Shown here: positions 17,343-24,011 of the stretch, one piece after another
How positions within the stretch are numbered: the first letter of the stretch is position 1
Layout of the letters: every line of letters begins with the position of its first letter
Source of the DNA: Gemmatimonadaceae bacterium
GTDB taxonomy: Bacteria; Gemmatimonadota; Gemmatimonadetes; Gemmatimonadales; Gemmatimonadaceae
Direction of reading: 5' to 3'
Assembly: GCA_020846935.1 (NCBI GenBank)
Contig: JADLCY010000008.1
Span: 124,001-188,000 of the forward strand
DNA: 64,000 nt
The notes under the pieces: generated by a model
The model's database searches: none
What the model saw: only the letters and a program-made list of their open reading frames with translations
Told to the model about the DNA's origin: nothing
Program-made: the position numbers and the translations under genes

Positions 17343-17531
17343 GACGAGAAGCTAGCCGCTTCGCGGCGGTGGCGGCGGCGTGCGTGAGGGTGCCGGGGAT
17401 GTCTCAGCTCCGTGGGGTGTGCGGCATGGCCCAGCCGAGTCTTCGGCGAGGGGGTGATTCGAACTGGGCCGATTCGATCCCGCACTGAGGCGAGGGTGGG
17501 GTGAGATTGTGAAGTTGTCCGTTCCCGGGAG

Positions 17532-18503
17532 ACCGTTCCGCGTCGCCGGTTGCTCGACGACGTTCGCGCCGCCTTGCGGGCACGGCACATAAGTCTCCGA
17601 ACGGAGTCCGCGTACACGTGCAGTGGGTCAAGCGTTACGTGCGCCATCATGGGCTGCGCCACCCCGCTGAGCTTGGTGAGGAACACATGGTGGCGTTCCT
17701 CACATACCTCGCGGCCGAAGGGAAGCTTGCGCGACCCATTCAGATGCAGGCGTGAGCGCGCTCAACTTCCTGTATCGGGTCGTGCTGCGACGCGAGGTGG
17801 CTGACCTGCGCAGAGTGTTGCGCTCGACCGGCCCTCCGCGACTCCCGGCGGTGTTGTCACGCGAAGACGTCCGGCGCCTGCTCGGCGTGATGGAGGGAGA
17901 GCGGCGACTGGTGGCGTCGCTGCTGTACGGGGGCGGTTTGCGCCTGATGGAGTGCCTTCAGCTGTGGGTGAAGGATGTGGAGCTCGAGCGCAGAGAGATC
18001 CGAGTGCGCCGCGGGAAGGGTGGCAGGGACCGAGTGACCATGCTGCCCGACGCCGCGCACGCTGCTGGAGGCACAGCTTGCGCGTCTGCGAGCCCTGCAC
18101 TCTGCGGACCTGGCGCGCGGGGCGGCGCCGCGCCTTTGCCCGGCGCCTCTGTCTCGTAAGGCACCCGGTTGGGCTACGGACCTTGCCTGGCAATGGCTGT
18201 TCCCGGCCCGCCGTACCTGGCTCGACTCGATTACGGGGAAGGCGCACCGCCATCACTGGCACGAGAGTGCCGTTCAGCGGCAGATGCGGGGCGCGGTGCT
18301 GCGGTCCGGCATCGCGAAGCGCGCGACCTGTCACACGCTGCGGCACTCCTTCGCGACCCACCCTGTTGGAGGATGGTTACGACATCCGAACGGCACAGGA
18401 GTTCCTGGGTCACACGGACGTGAGCACGACGATGATCCACACACACGTGCTGAACCGGGGCAGCCTGGGAGTTCGGAGCCCTGCGGACCGGGCATCGGGT
18501 TGA
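17532..18503 (+). pseudogene. Integron integrase (IntI-type tyrosine recombinase), frameshifted
   Basis: Three reading frames joined in order give a nearly full IntI-like recombinase. Near 17532-17620 LLDDVRAALRARHISLRTES resembles the integrase N-terminus. A second frame gives WVKRYVRHHGLRHPAELGE. A third, 17755-18050, gives [17 protein letters not shown] and [15 protein letters not shown] with the catalytic Arg and Lys. A later frame gives [20 protein letters not shown], the additional helix patch specific to integron integrases, then [11 protein letters not shown] with His and Arg. After one more shift near 18360 come [20 protein letters not shown] and the end. The nucleophile segment reads TTMIHTHVL where active enzymes have TTMIYTHVL, so Tyr is replaced by His (codon 18438-18440). 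At least four frameshifts and a lost nucleophile make it inactive. Confidence 0.88.
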
Positions 18504-19021: not shown

Positions 19022-20404
19022 ATGAAAGGATTCGTACCAACACCGGCAGGCATTGTCGACCGGCTGGTCGAGAAGCTCATGGCCGGAGTTTCCGATCCCC
19101 GAGACCTGCGCGTCCTGGACCCAGGCTGCGGCGAAGGCGAATTCATCGAGGGTCTGCTGCGCTATTGTGAGCGCCATCGACTCTCAAGACCTCGAATCGT
19201 TGGCATTGAATTGGATCCGGGCCGCGCGAGCGTCGCTCGGCAGCGATTCTCGAACGTGAGCGAAGTTGAGATTCGGGAAGCGGATTTCCTAGTTCCGTCG
19301 ACGGAGAGGTTCGAACTAATAGTTGGCAATCCGCCCTACGTCTCGATTCTCGAGTTGAGTCAAGTCGAGCGCTCGCATTTTCGTCACGCCTACGAATCGG
19401 CCCGCGGACGATTCGACCTATACGTCCTCTTTTTCGAGCAGGCGATGCGGATGCTCGCGACTGGTGGACGACTCGTCTTCATTACGCCTGAGAAGTATCT
19501 CTACGTCGAGAGCGCTCGCGGACTGCGCAAACTCCTTCTGTCCCGCCACGTGAGCGAGCTCCACTTCGCGGACGAAAGCACCTTTGGCGCGCTCGTGACC
19601 TATCCGCTAGTTACGACCGTCAGCGCCGAAGGCAGCCTCGCTCCAACGCGAGTCATAGATCGCGACGGAACAGAGCGGGACGTGCGCCTCGAGTCAGCCG
19701 ATTCCTGGTTGCCTACGGTCAGAGGCCACACCTCAAGCGACCATCGAGGCCTCGTTCTCGGCGACGTAGCACTGCGCGTTAGTTGCGGCGTAGCCACCGG
19801 CGCGGACCAGGTCTTTGTCGTGCGCGCAACTGCGCTTAGCCCCGCGCTCACTCGTTTTGCGCATCCAACTCTTTCTGGGCGACAGATTGCGCTGGACCGT
19901 GGGATCGCTAGTGATCACGTGATGCTTGCGCCCTACGATGACACCGGTCGGCTGCTTCCAGAATCATCTCTTGGAGTGTTGGGGGCATATCTCAACGAGC
20001 CCAGTCGACGTGCTCAACTTGAGCGACGCACCTGTACGGCTAGGAAGAAGTGGTTCGCCTTTCACGACAATCTTCCTTTGGATGTGATCTTGCGGCCGAA
20101 GTTGCTTTGTAAGGATATCACGGAGACTCCGTTCTTTGTCGTTGACGAGGCCGGCTTAGTCGTTCCGAGGCATTCAGTTTACTATGTCGTTCCCGTCGAC
20201 CCGAGCGATCTGGGGCCGCTAGCCTCATACCTGAATTCTGCGGAGGCACGGGACTGGATGCGCTCTCACTGCCAGCGCGCCGCCAAGGGATTCTTGAGGA
20301 TGCAGAGCCATACGCTGAAGCAGCTTCCGCTTCCACCGTCCTTCGCTGCGAAGCTCAGGGGGCTGCCTTCACTCTCGACTCAACTTGAGGCACGGCTGGC
20401 TTGA
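19022..20404 (+). CDS. Adenine-specific DNA methyltransferase (Eco57I/TaqI-like)
   Basis: A 460-residue N6-adenine methyltransferase. SAM motif I is DPGCGEGEF (33-41), the acidic motif II is GIELDP, and catalytic motif IV is NPPYVS (103-108), the gamma-class order seen in M.TaqI. The C-terminal half (about 230-460) resembles a target-recognition domain, with KKWFAFHDN, LLCKDITETPFFV and LKQLPLPP near the end. It protects host DNA from the endonuclease encoded next. The stop overlaps the restriction gene by four bases (TTGA). Codon use is visibly less GC-biased than the surrounding chromosome, suggesting acquisition. The recognition sequence cannot be read from sequence. Confidence 0.9.
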   Translation: MKGFVPTPAGIVDRLVEKLMAGVSDPRDLRVLDPGCGEGEFIEGLLRYCERHRLSRPRIVGIELDPGRASVARQRFSNVSEVEIREADFLVPSTERFELIVGNPPYVSILELSQVERSHFRHAYESARGRFDLYVLFFEQAMRMLATGGRLVFITPEKYLYVESARGLRKLLLSRHVSELHFADESTFGALVTYPLVTTVSAEGSLAPTRVIDRDGTERDVRLESADSWLPTVRGHTSSDHRGLVLGDVALRVSCGVATGADQVFVVRATALSPALTRFAHPTLSGRQIALDRGIASDHVMLAPYDDTGRLLPESSLGVLGAYLNEPSRRAQLERRTCTARKKWFAFHDNLPLDVILRPKLLCKDITETPFFVVDEAGLVVPRHSVYYVVPVDPSDLGPLASYLNSAEARDWMRSHCQRAAKGFLRMQSHTLKQLPLPPSFAAKLRGLPSLSTQLEARLA

Positions 20405-21180
20405 CCACTCCGTTTGACGCTGCCATCGAGGCGATTCAGAAAGCTGGCTATCACAACCATCGCCTCGAAGGTCACTCCGACATCGTCAGCCAGGGCATAT
20501 TCTCCGACCTTGTCGCGTCATGCCCAGCGTTCCGTGCCGACGTCGAGTCGGGAAAGGTTCAGGTCTGGAAGAACGTATCGTCACCCGGCGACCGAGAGCG
20601 CCGCGTCGACCTTTTCGTTGGCGAGCCGGGCGCCGAGGGACAACCCAACATGGCCAAGTGCCGGCTTGCCGTTGAGAACAAGTCCGTCATTACAGCGCAC
20701 CGGAACCGGACAAACAGGTTTGACGATCTCAAGAAAGTCGTCGCTGCGATACAGGGCGAGCGCCCGGAGGCGCTGCTGATCGCAACTGTTCTCATCGGAC
20801 TCTCGGGCCGCGTCTTGAACATCCCCGACCAGGTTCACAAGTTCTATCGTGATCGCGAGGACGAGTTCGACCGAGATGTTCTGCCTCGGCTTTCAACGGG
20901 AGACGAGAGCCTGTTTGACGAGTTCAACTGGGCCATCAGCAGCAACCGCTCGTCGGAGCCGAAGAAGACACTTGAGCTTTTTCAGACGCTGCCGACGCGA
21001 GGGTCGGCGCAGACCCATTTGACCGCTTACGACTCGGTACTGCTTGTTCCAGTCCGGATCGATAATGTTCATCCACCGGAGCTGCCGCGGCCAAACGCAC
21101 TCGGTATCGATGTTGATGCTGAGTACGCTGCCTTCATCGACAGAACATGCAAGGCGTACACAGCGCGATGGCACATGTAG
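20401..21180 (+). CDS. Probable type II restriction endonuclease partner
   Basis: A 259-residue protein, TTG start at 20401 overlapping the methyltransferase stop. A PD-(D/E)xK nuclease core is likely: D70 in RRVDLFVGEP and E92-N-K94 in LAVENKS. The flanking YHNHRLEGHSDIVSQG and RTNRFDDLKKVV have no named family I can give with confidence. The position, coupling and nuclease motif support a restriction endonuclease that cuts unmodified DNA at the site protected by the upstream enzyme. Composition is as low in GC3 as its partner. An IS3 element begins about 65 bases after its stop. Confidence 0.7.
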   Translation: MTTPFDAAIEAIQKAGYHNHRLEGHSDIVSQGIFSDLVASCPAFRADVESGKVQVWKNVSSPGDRERRVDLFVGEPGAEGQPNMAKCRLAVENKSVITAHRNRTNRFDDLKKVVAAIQGERPEALLIATVLIGLSGRVLNIPDQVHKFYRDREDEFDRDVLPRLSTGDESLFDEFNWAISSNRSSEPKKTLELFQTLPTRGSAQTHLTAYDSVLLVPVRIDNVHPPELPRPNALGIDVDAEYAAFIDRTCKAYTARWHM

Positions 21181-21244
21181 GGCGCGCGTAGCGGCCGTTC
21201 TAGGGTGCGACCTAGCAGTGGGTTGCTGCTGCCGCCGCACTGGG

Positions 21245-21271
21245 GAGAAGTGGTCCCGGATTTCTGAACAG
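21245..21271 (+). repeat. IS3 left inverted repeat
   Basis: Starts GAGAAGTGG and ends CTGAACAG. It matches the reverse complement of the right end at 22 of 27 positions. Confidence 0.85.
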
Positions 21272-21336
21272 GTGAGATAGCTGGACCGGCGGGCTCCACG
21301 AGCGAGATTACGCTCCTTGAGTCAGGAGACCGCATC

Positions 21337-21642
21337 ATGGCCAGACGTACCCGCCGCAATCACGCCCCAGCCTTCAAGGCCAAGGTCGCCCTCGCGGCGA
21401 TCCGCCACGAAGGCACCATCGCCGAGTTGGCGAAACGATTCGATGTCCACCCCGCCCAGGTGACGGCCTGGAAAGAGCAATTGCTCAGCGGTGCCGTCGA
21501 CGTCTTTGGTGGCGGCGGCCGTTCAACCGAGCCGCCCATCGACGTGACCACGCTCCACGCCAAGATTGGCGAACTGGCGCTGGAGAATGATTTTTTAGAA
21601 CGCGCGCTCGGCAAGGCCGGCCTGCTGAGCGCCAAGCGATGA
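21337..21642 (+). CDS. IS3-family transposase OrfA
   Basis: A 101-residue DNA-binding subunit. The N-terminal helix-turn-helix is clear ([39 protein letters not shown]), followed by a [10 protein letters not shown] turn and a leucine-zipper-like segment ([19 protein letters not shown]) that mediates oligomerisation. OrfA and OrfB overlap by ATGA in the -1 frame. IS3 elements often make an OrfAB fusion by -1 frameshifting, but no A-rich slippery site is seen here, so reinitiation is equally likely. Confidence 0.93.
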
Positions 21643-22466
21643 TCGACCGGACTCACCCGCTGCCGATTGCCCGGCAGGCCGCGGCGTTGGGGATCAGTCG
21701 AGGCGCGGTGTACTACAAGCCGCGACCACCGTCGGCGTTCGATCTCGCCCTGATGCGTCGGATCGATGCGGTCCACCTGGAGATGCCGTGGTTCGGGGCG
21801 CGCGGGATCAGGCGCGTTCTCAGGAAAGAGTACCCTGGTTTGGGCCGCCGCCGGATCGGGACCCTGATGCGCACCATGGGGCTCAGCGCGATCGCGCCGC
21901 AGCCGGGCACCAGCCGTCGTCATCGGGCGCATCCGGTGTATCCGTACCTGCTCAGGCAGCGCGTGATCACGCGACCGAACGAAGTCTGGGCGATGGACAT
22001 CACCTACATCCCGATGGCGCGGGGCTTCGTGTATCTCGCGGCGGTCATGGACTGGGCCAGCCGACGGGTGCTCAGCTGGCGGCTCTCGCTCACGCTCGAC
22101 AGCGCGTTCTGCGTCGAGGCCGTGCAAGAAGCGATCACGCGCTACGGCCGGCCGGAGATCTTCAACACCGACCAGGGCGTGCAGTTCACCAGTGCCGCGT
22201 TCACCGGTCTCCTGCTCAACCACAACATCCGGATCAGCATGGATGGGCGCGGGTGCTGGCGCGACAACATCTTCGTCGAGCGCCTCTGGCGGACTCTCAA
22301 GTACGAGGAGGTCTATCTGCACGCGTACGACTCGGTCTCTGCGGCACAAGCCGGGATCGCGCGCTATCTCACCCTCTACAACTCCCGTCGTCCCCATTCC
22401 AGCCTCGCCGACCACACCCCGGACGAAGCATACTTCCTCCCGCTGTCACTCCCCGTGGCAGCTTAA
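21639..22466 (+). CDS. IS3-family transposase OrfB (DDE integrase core)
   Basis: A 275-residue catalytic subunit with an N-terminal HTH_21 region ([10 protein letters not shown]-like [11 protein letters not shown], then [14 protein letters not shown]) and an rve integrase domain. The DDE triad is intact: Asp in WAMDITYIP, Asp in FNTDQGVQF and Glu in [13 protein letters not shown]. It catalyses transposition of this element. The gene is full length. Confidence 0.95.
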
Positions 22467-22502
22467 CCCCGCTCGCCGATCCCGTTAACTCACGCCCTTA
22501 GG

Positions 22503-22529
22503 CTGTACAGAAAAGCGGAGCCACTTCTC
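22503..22529 (-). repeat. IS3 right inverted repeat
   Basis: Reads CTGTACAG inward to CCACTTCTC outward on the plus strand; its reverse complement is the partner of the left repeat. Confidence 0.85.
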
Positions 22530-22667
22530 TACGTCCATGCCGCGAGGCTTCTGGACACATGGGAAGGCGCAGTCGACGCTCTTGCCCGTTTGAAGGCGTT
22601 GTCTCAACTAGACGCCTTTGTGCTAGGGAAGCCAACCAGCCAAGAGATTGTCGCGCTCTTTGCGTGA
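22530..22667 (+). pseudogene. 3' remnant of an ORF cut by the IS3 element
   Basis: A 45-codon open segment starting directly at the IS3 end: LLDTWEGAVDALARLKALSQ is followed by LDAFVLGKPTSQEIVALFA and a TGA at 22665. Regular helix-like composition and the same modest GC3 as the R-M genes suggest a real C-terminus. The 5' part is missing and is not found on the other side of the IS. It ends 49 bases before the attC site, as a cassette gene would. The family is not recognised. Confidence 0.4.
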
Positions 22668-22716
22668 GCATGCCTCCAGGAGACTGCTTCACGGCGATGT
22701 ACTGGCATGTGCTGCT

Positions 22717-22801
22717 ACCTAACAGTCGACTGCACCTGACAGTCGTTCGGGGCGGGCCGGCTTTCATCCCCTCGGCTGCAGGTGAGCCGGCGCCGTTGGG
22801 C
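22717..22801 (+). other. Integron attC recombination site
   Basis: An 85-base imperfect palindrome with all attC parts. R'' is ACCTAAC (22717-22723, consensus RYYYAAC) and R' is GTTGGGC (22795-22801, consensus GTTRRRY). L'' GACTGCACC (22728-22736) pairs with L' GGTGAGCC (22781-22788) leaving G22732 unpaired, the extrahelical base that sets attC strand polarity; the stem extends through CTGCACCTG against CAGGTGAG. Orientation places its cassette gene on the left, on the plus strand, moving away from the integrase remnant. Confidence 0.75.
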
Positions 22802-22976
22802 GCTCATCGTGGAGACGAGGTGTGGAACTTACTCCTGGCTATTGCTATTCTCGCCGGCGTGAAGGGCTGGCACCGGCGTGACTTCCGCCCGCTGCCCTTG
22901 TCCACGAGAAGCAGCGCCGAGTTGAGGTATCGCTTGGCCTGGAGGCGCGCCGGCGGAATCGCGGCGTCGGTCTTGA

Positions 22977-23141: not shown

Positions 23142-23219
23142 GCCCAATACCTCCATCGAGTGGACGGCTTCCGGCTGGCTCCGCATGCCTCCGGTCGCCG
23201 TTGATATCGAGCGTTCGGC
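23142..23219 (+). other. Decayed attC-like site
   Basis: A 78-base segment with degenerate ends: GCCCAAT at the left (one off RYYYAAC) and GTTCGGC at the right (one off GTTRRRY). Between them TCGA, ACGGC and CCGG blocks of the left arm find complements in the right arm (CCGG, GCCGT, TCGA), giving a bulged stem. It lies 418 bases beyond the first attC core, a normal cassette spacing, and in the same orientation. Both core boxes are one base off consensus, so it is probably inactive. Confidence 0.45.
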
Positions 23220-23534: not shown

Positions 23535-24011
23535 ATGTCCCTGTACCAGCGCGACTTCATCCTTCGACTCATCGAGGCCGTTGGCGCCACGCTCCGCCGC
23601 GCCCTCAAACGCCGCGAAGAGAACGACCTCGCCGGCGCGCGGCAGGAGATTGCCCTGACCATCGGTGAAGTCCTTGGCCCGGGCGCCGCGATGGTGCCGA
23701 TGGTCGATGCCACCACGGCGGCGAACCTGGTGTCCGACCCACAACGGCTCGCACTCTACTGCCAGCTCCTGGAGGCAGACGCCGAGTTGCTGTCCGCGAT
23801 GGGTCAGACCGATCGCGCCGCGGCCGTCGCGCGCCGGGCAACGGAGCTGCTGCTGGAACTGGTGCTCAGGCGCGTCGAGCTGCCTGACGACACCATTGCG
23901 CGCATACAAACGCTGGTGCAACGCACCGACGTGGCATCGCTCGGCCCGCGCTACCGTGACGCGGCCGCGGCCGCGATGCGCCTCACCTCGGCGCCGACGC
24001 GCACGAACTGA
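23535..24011 (+). CDS. DUF6483-like hypothetical protein
   Basis: A 158-residue, nearly all-helical soluble protein. The opening MSLYQRDFILRLIEAVGATL resembles the start of DUF6483 proteins of Firmicutes and Gemmatimonadota, which are of unknown function. No signal peptide, membrane helix or catalytic motif is visible. It is the first gene right of the island with chromosome-like codon use, and its stop abuts the stop of the convergent cyclase gene. Confidence 0.55.
   Translation: MSLYQRDFILRLIEAVGATLRRALKRREENDLAGARQEIALTIGEVLGPGAAMVPMVDATTAANLVSDPQRLALYCQLLEADAELLSAMGQTDRAAAVARRATELLLELVLRRVELPDDTIARIQTLVQRTDVASLGPRYRDAAAAAMRLTSAPTRTN

Follow-up and report, generated by a model that had tools for sequence, protein, structure and literature searches.

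A probable remnant attC site in a decayed inverted-type chromosomal integron of a Gemmatimonadaceae bacterium

The 64 kb stretch of Gemmatimonadaceae DNA analysed here (the window) contains, at positions 22717–22801 of the + strand, what is very probably an attC site that persists in a sedentary chromosomal integron, now decayed. The locus is a decayed inverted-type chromosomal integron, at which gene cassettes once moved. The boxes and arms of the site, a pair of extrahelical bases that keep the register used in this genome, the strand polarity and a neighbouring pseudogene of the integron integrase (IntI) were observed directly, and recombination at the site is proposed from published work.

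Structure and detection of the attC site

The consensus boxes of attC sites are RYYYAAC (R'') and GTTRRRY (R'), in inverted orientation. Both were found at the ends of the site, which is organised as follows:

22717–22801, + strand: attC site (R1 and R2 covariance models, template score)
22717–22723, + strand: R'' box, ACCTAAC (read directly)
22733–22738 and 22779–22784, + strand: L'' core CACCTG, pairing with L' core CAGGTG
22795–22801, + strand: R' box, GTTGGGC (read directly)

The R'' box is followed by two nucleotides, six stem positions, the extrahelical G22732, six base pairs and a second extrahelical base, A22739. The outer stem runs T22726·G22790, C-G, G-C, the mismatch A22729×C22787, C-G and T-A up to G22732, and the inner stem beyond A22739 is formed by CAGTCG and CGGCTG with one T·G pair. 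The same register is seen in unambiguous attC sites from this genome and from a relative (L012:9629–9688, L049:1501–1562 and L049:2881–2940). An earlier note on this DNA, made from the sequence alone, had placed both boxes and the pairable arms correctly, but had taken G22732 for the only unpaired base, whereas A22739 is also extrahelical and A22729 and C22787 are mismatched. Far from counting against the site, the second bulge makes it a more typical attC, since two to three extrahelical bases are usual in the L stem of attC sites, as described in PMC2727003.

Scanning the + strand of the window for RYYYAAC..GTTRRRY, with a total length of 45–150 nt and an arm score of at least 5, identified this place alone. 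A stricter template composed of boxes, outer stem, bulge, 5–7 bp, bulge and inner stem, applied to both strands of the window, again selected only 22717–22801, with a score of 12.6. Both strands of 60 windows generated by an order-1 Markov model contained six places scoring at least 9, one scoring at least 11 and none scoring at least 12. Three further places in the window scored 11.2 to 13.6, one of them above the candidate, when the boxes of the template were relaxed; none of the three has attC boxes, and they receive no support from the covariance models. The box pattern by itself is uninformative, because 36 of 60 genomes contain GCCYAAC..GTTRGGC, and in the genome studied here its backward control is equally frequent (6 and 6).

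A comparison of the window with Rfam gave nothing at gathering scores, and therefore attC models had to be made in this analysis. Model R1 was built from ten attC sites, four from the same genome and three from each of the genomes G036 and G042. Model R2 was built from 74 R1 matches at 35 loci (8 matches from the same genome and 66 from relatives), and the window was excluded from both models. R1 matched exactly 22717–22801 with 33.6 bits (E = 1.9e-6), the runner-up among seven window matches reaching 15.8 bits, and R2 matched the same positions with 45.8 bits (E = 8e-10), the runner-up among three window matches reaching 12.9 bits; the E-values are rough because the calibrations were short. 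The covariance-model match predicted from the raw sequence was thus obtained to the base with the models made here, and the exact matches of two models that excluded the window uphold the identification as attC and the past presence of cassettes. With filters off, R1 assigned 5.6 bits to the minus strand of the site against 33.6 bits to the plus strand, so the polarity is + and the array points to the + direction, as had been proposed. Genome-wide, R1 produced 13 matches, twelve of at least 28.5 bits and one of 16.7 bits, among which the candidate ranks eighth.

Folding of the site

The free minimum-energy fold leaves the attC arms unpaired on both strands, and is little better than the folds of shuffled sequences (z-scores of −0.60 and −1.55). 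A fold with unpaired arms is what the earlier note had named as evidence against the site, and its description of the site as well-formed goes too far. The expected number of pairs between the arms of the bottom strand was 0.45, compared with 6.6 to 23.8 in eight other, hand-picked sites of the genome. The constrained folding probability (pfold) of the bottom strand was 2.8e-5, compared with 0.18–0.92 in seven other sites of the genome, also hand-picked, which comprise six of the eleven other sites of at least 28.5 bits and C4:2423–2522. The constraint applied here, with the L core and three pairs of the R boxes (AAC/GTT) enforced, comes close to the published pfold, which requires the L pairs plus four pairs of the R boxes (PMC5371416). 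The recombinogenic bottom-strand hairpin is therefore possible but disfavoured. Sites with low pfold are described as less efficiently excised, and also as occurring in chromosomal integrons (PMC5371416). From the low pfold and the lower excision published for such sites, the attC site looks inherited but decayed, and is recognisable by descent.

The integrase pseudogene and neighbouring genes

The surroundings of the attC site contain the following features:

17514–18491, + strand: integron integrase pseudogene with frameshifts and stops (TIGR02249 pieces, tblastn, domain matches)
19022–20404, + strand: adenine-specific DNA methyltransferase, a relative of M.TaqI (Pfam Eco57I 3.2e-21; PADLOC MTase_II 7.6e-44; M.TaqI chains 7.3e-17)
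20401–21180, + strand: frame overlapping the methyltransferase, putative restriction endonuclease (pairing with the methyltransferase)
21210–21239, + strand: probable 5' half (R''–L'') of a second attC site (weight matrix 13.4 bits, position)
21245–22529, + strand: IS3-family element with imperfect 27-nt terminal repeats (orfB, NCBIfam IS3, 5.2e-72)
21245–21271 and 22503–22529: inverted repeats of the IS3-family element
21337–21642, + strand: orfA of the IS3-family element
21639–22466, + strand: orfB of the IS3-family element
22530–22667, + strand: putative 3' end of a cassette-like gene (open frame)
23142–23219, + strand: doubtful degraded attC-like stretch (R2 12.9 bits, E = 0.37; R1 11.8 bits)

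The integrase pseudogene is located 4.2 kb upstream of the attC site on the same strand. Its matches to TIGR02249 follow one another in changing frames (17582–17755, 17728–18054, 18065–18364 and 18360–18491), and in tblastn the pieces align to the intact IntI of contig C15 of the same genome, with stops between them and 86% identity in the last piece. No functional intI is present beside the array, the local gene spanning several frames with stops. The attC site, on the + strand from 22717, lies past the 3' end of the + strand intI pseudogene, which is the arrangement that defines the inverted type. A blastn search with the C15 sequence 3' of intI found no attI in the window; the same sequence recurs at the end of contig C1. 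Elsewhere in the genome, two IntI genes with open frames score above the TIGR02249 cut-off, one on C15 and one on C1, and there are several partial matches. At L012:8650–9050 (G000 C1:933649–934049), intI is cut after its N-terminal part and joins the sequence found 3' of the C15 intI (91 nt, 92% identity), and an attC array follows the truncated gene. The sequence suggests an internal deletion of intI that spared a probable attI.

The frame at 20401–21180 likely encodes the restriction endonuclease that belongs to the methyltransferase, a function assigned from the pairing of the two genes. Its product has no match in Pfam, NCBIfam or PADLOC, nor among solved structures at E < 0.25, and may represent an endonuclease family without a model. 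No relatives of the endonuclease were present in the plasmid collection, and none were confirmed in viral contigs. The methyltransferase and endonuclease genes occur together in three of 98 relatives. The possibility that the pair forms a cassette there too found no support, as the three carriers have no convincing attC near it; the sole match in its vicinity (16.5 bits, L240) and the pair itself occupy opposite strands.

The probable half site is located between the stop of the endonuclease frame (21180) and the IS3-family element. Its weight-matrix score is the second best for a 5' half in the window, after that of the candidate's own half (19.6 bits). Since 16 of 200 order-2 null windows reach 13.4 bits (2 of 200 reach 19.6), it is the location that makes this half site probable. 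It was not recovered by the full covariance model. A second copy of the IS3-family element on contig C10 (81%) matches 21243–22282 (query 63–1102 of 21181–22810), and this match does not include the attC. No target duplication flanks the element in the window, as would be expected if neighbouring sequence had been deleted. On the right-hand side of the element, the cassette-like frame ends with a stop at 22665–22667, 49 nt ahead of the attC site, as cassette genes do. This gene end has no relative in the 98 other genomes.

Integrons of the same order

Matches to R1 (E 0.001) were found in 65 of 99 genomes and IntI matches (1e-30) in 64 of 99, the genome studied here being counted in both. The surroundings of 31 IntI loci, two from this genome and 29 from relatives, were searched for attC sites within approximately 1.5 kb. 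Such sites were found near twelve of the loci (L124, L128, L129, L130, L131, L137, L138, L139, L142, L143, L144 and L147), and in all twelve they are on the intI strand, past the 3' end of intI. At L124, two matches on the + strand were discarded, the same places scoring 43 and 48 bits higher on the − strand. Because every testable locus is inverted, this arrangement of intI and attC is likely general in the order. Inverted IntIs are described as a sub-clade of soil and freshwater IntIs in PMC8352920, and Gemmatimonadota are listed among the phyla with integrons in PMC8618304.

Within the G000 assembly, attC matches occur within a few kilobases of five contig ends, namely the ends of C1, C6 and C15 and the starts of C4 and C14. 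Cassette arrays probably broke the assembly there, so that cassettes are likely undercounted. Genome G002, of the same genus, carries hrpB and a homologue of the gene at 23535 in the same order, with approximately 14 kb of other content between them (L234:2870–17140, G002 C1), and no attC match was found in these 14 kb. The spot is therefore variable between two conserved genes. HrpB had no near relative in genome_contigs, where records of this or a very near genome may be absent; by this protein, Gemmatimonadota is indicated by two records of 57% and 54% identity, with other phyla reaching 55%.

Proposed mechanism and alternative explanations

Based on published work, the function of the intact site can be proposed. 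In the active state, R'' would pair with R' and L'' with L', so that the bottom strand forms a hairpin. The features recognised by IntI would be the spacer and the extrahelical bases, which are G22732 and A22739 in the top strand and thus C and T in the bottom strand. Cleavage by IntI in the R' box would enable the preceding cassette to be excised, or to be joined at attI in one orientation. Little or no activity is probably left at the site today, given the broken local intI, the interruption of the array by an IS3-family element and the other folds that the bottom strand is predicted to favour. The intact IntI genes of C15 and C1 might act on it in trans. We speculate that the methyltransferase and endonuclease pair became frozen in the inverted-type integron when the integrase decayed and the IS3-family element removed the inner half of the attC site of the pair along with the beginning of the cassette that followed, which would have turned a mobile defence cassette into a fixed operon. 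This scenario is tentative, possible though doubtful.

The identification of 22717–22801 as an attC site of a decayed integron has to accommodate the presence of a single secure attC in the window, beside the half site and the doubtful stretch, as well as the three relatives that carry the gene pair away from any convincing attC and the free fold without an attC hairpin on either strand. That fold, no better than shuffles, and the frequency with which R'' and R' boxes by themselves arise by chance speak for a fortuitous palindrome resembling attC. Such a coincidence is very unlikely given that R2 places the site over 30 bits ahead of the next window match, that template scores of 12 were absent from the null windows, and that the site stands in an integron context. 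It is extremely unlikely that the palindrome, which begins 188 nt from the end of the IS3-family element, is a structured end of that element or a transcription terminator instead of an attC: the terminal repeats stop at 22529, the second copy of the element comes without the attC, no T run follows R', and the attC models match the palindrome exactly.

A different question is whether the attC still works, with the intact IntI of C15 or C1 recombining it in trans and the low pfold overcome on single-stranded DNA, for example at the replication fork. The two open-frame IntI genes above the TIGR02249 cut-off, the retention of the boxes, both extrahelical bases and polarity, and the low-pfold sites reported from chromosomal integrons are in agreement with this. 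Nevertheless, continued activity is unlikely, considering the gap in pfold to the seven compared sites, the A22729×C22787 mismatch and the poorer excision described for low-pfold sites (PMC5371416).

Comparison with known systems

The site belongs to a known kind of element, of which it is an ordinary representative, and changes no established view. It shares the R'' and R' boxes, the L'' and L' arms and the + polarity with the chromosomal-integron attC sites of the same genome and order, and likewise has an extrahelical G and then an A six base pairs apart. Unlike them, it has a mismatch in the outer stem and an A·C outer R-box pair, and its pfold is far below that of the seven sites compared in the same genome. 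The site bears out, to the base, what had been predicted from the raw sequence, and is one of several integron remnants in the genome. The more useful by-product of the analysis is the inverted arrangement of intI and attC in all twelve testable IntI loci of the order.

CALINs (clusters of attC sites lacking an integrase) comprise two or more neighbouring attC sites in the absence of intI. The locus resembles them in having an attC without a working adjacent intI, and differs from them in its still recognisable intI pseudogene and its count of one secure attC, one probable half and one doubtful site in the window. Mutational loss of intI has been described as one way in which CALINs arise (PMC8618304). 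The inverted arrangement, in which intI is transcribed towards attI, was described for Treponema (PMC3607928). In contrast to the Treponema integrons, the locus studied here has a broken intI and an IS3-family element in its array, and its host belongs to a different phylum, Gemmatimonadota. Like the inverted-type integrons described there, it has its intI, here a pseudogene, on the attC strand and upstream of the attC.
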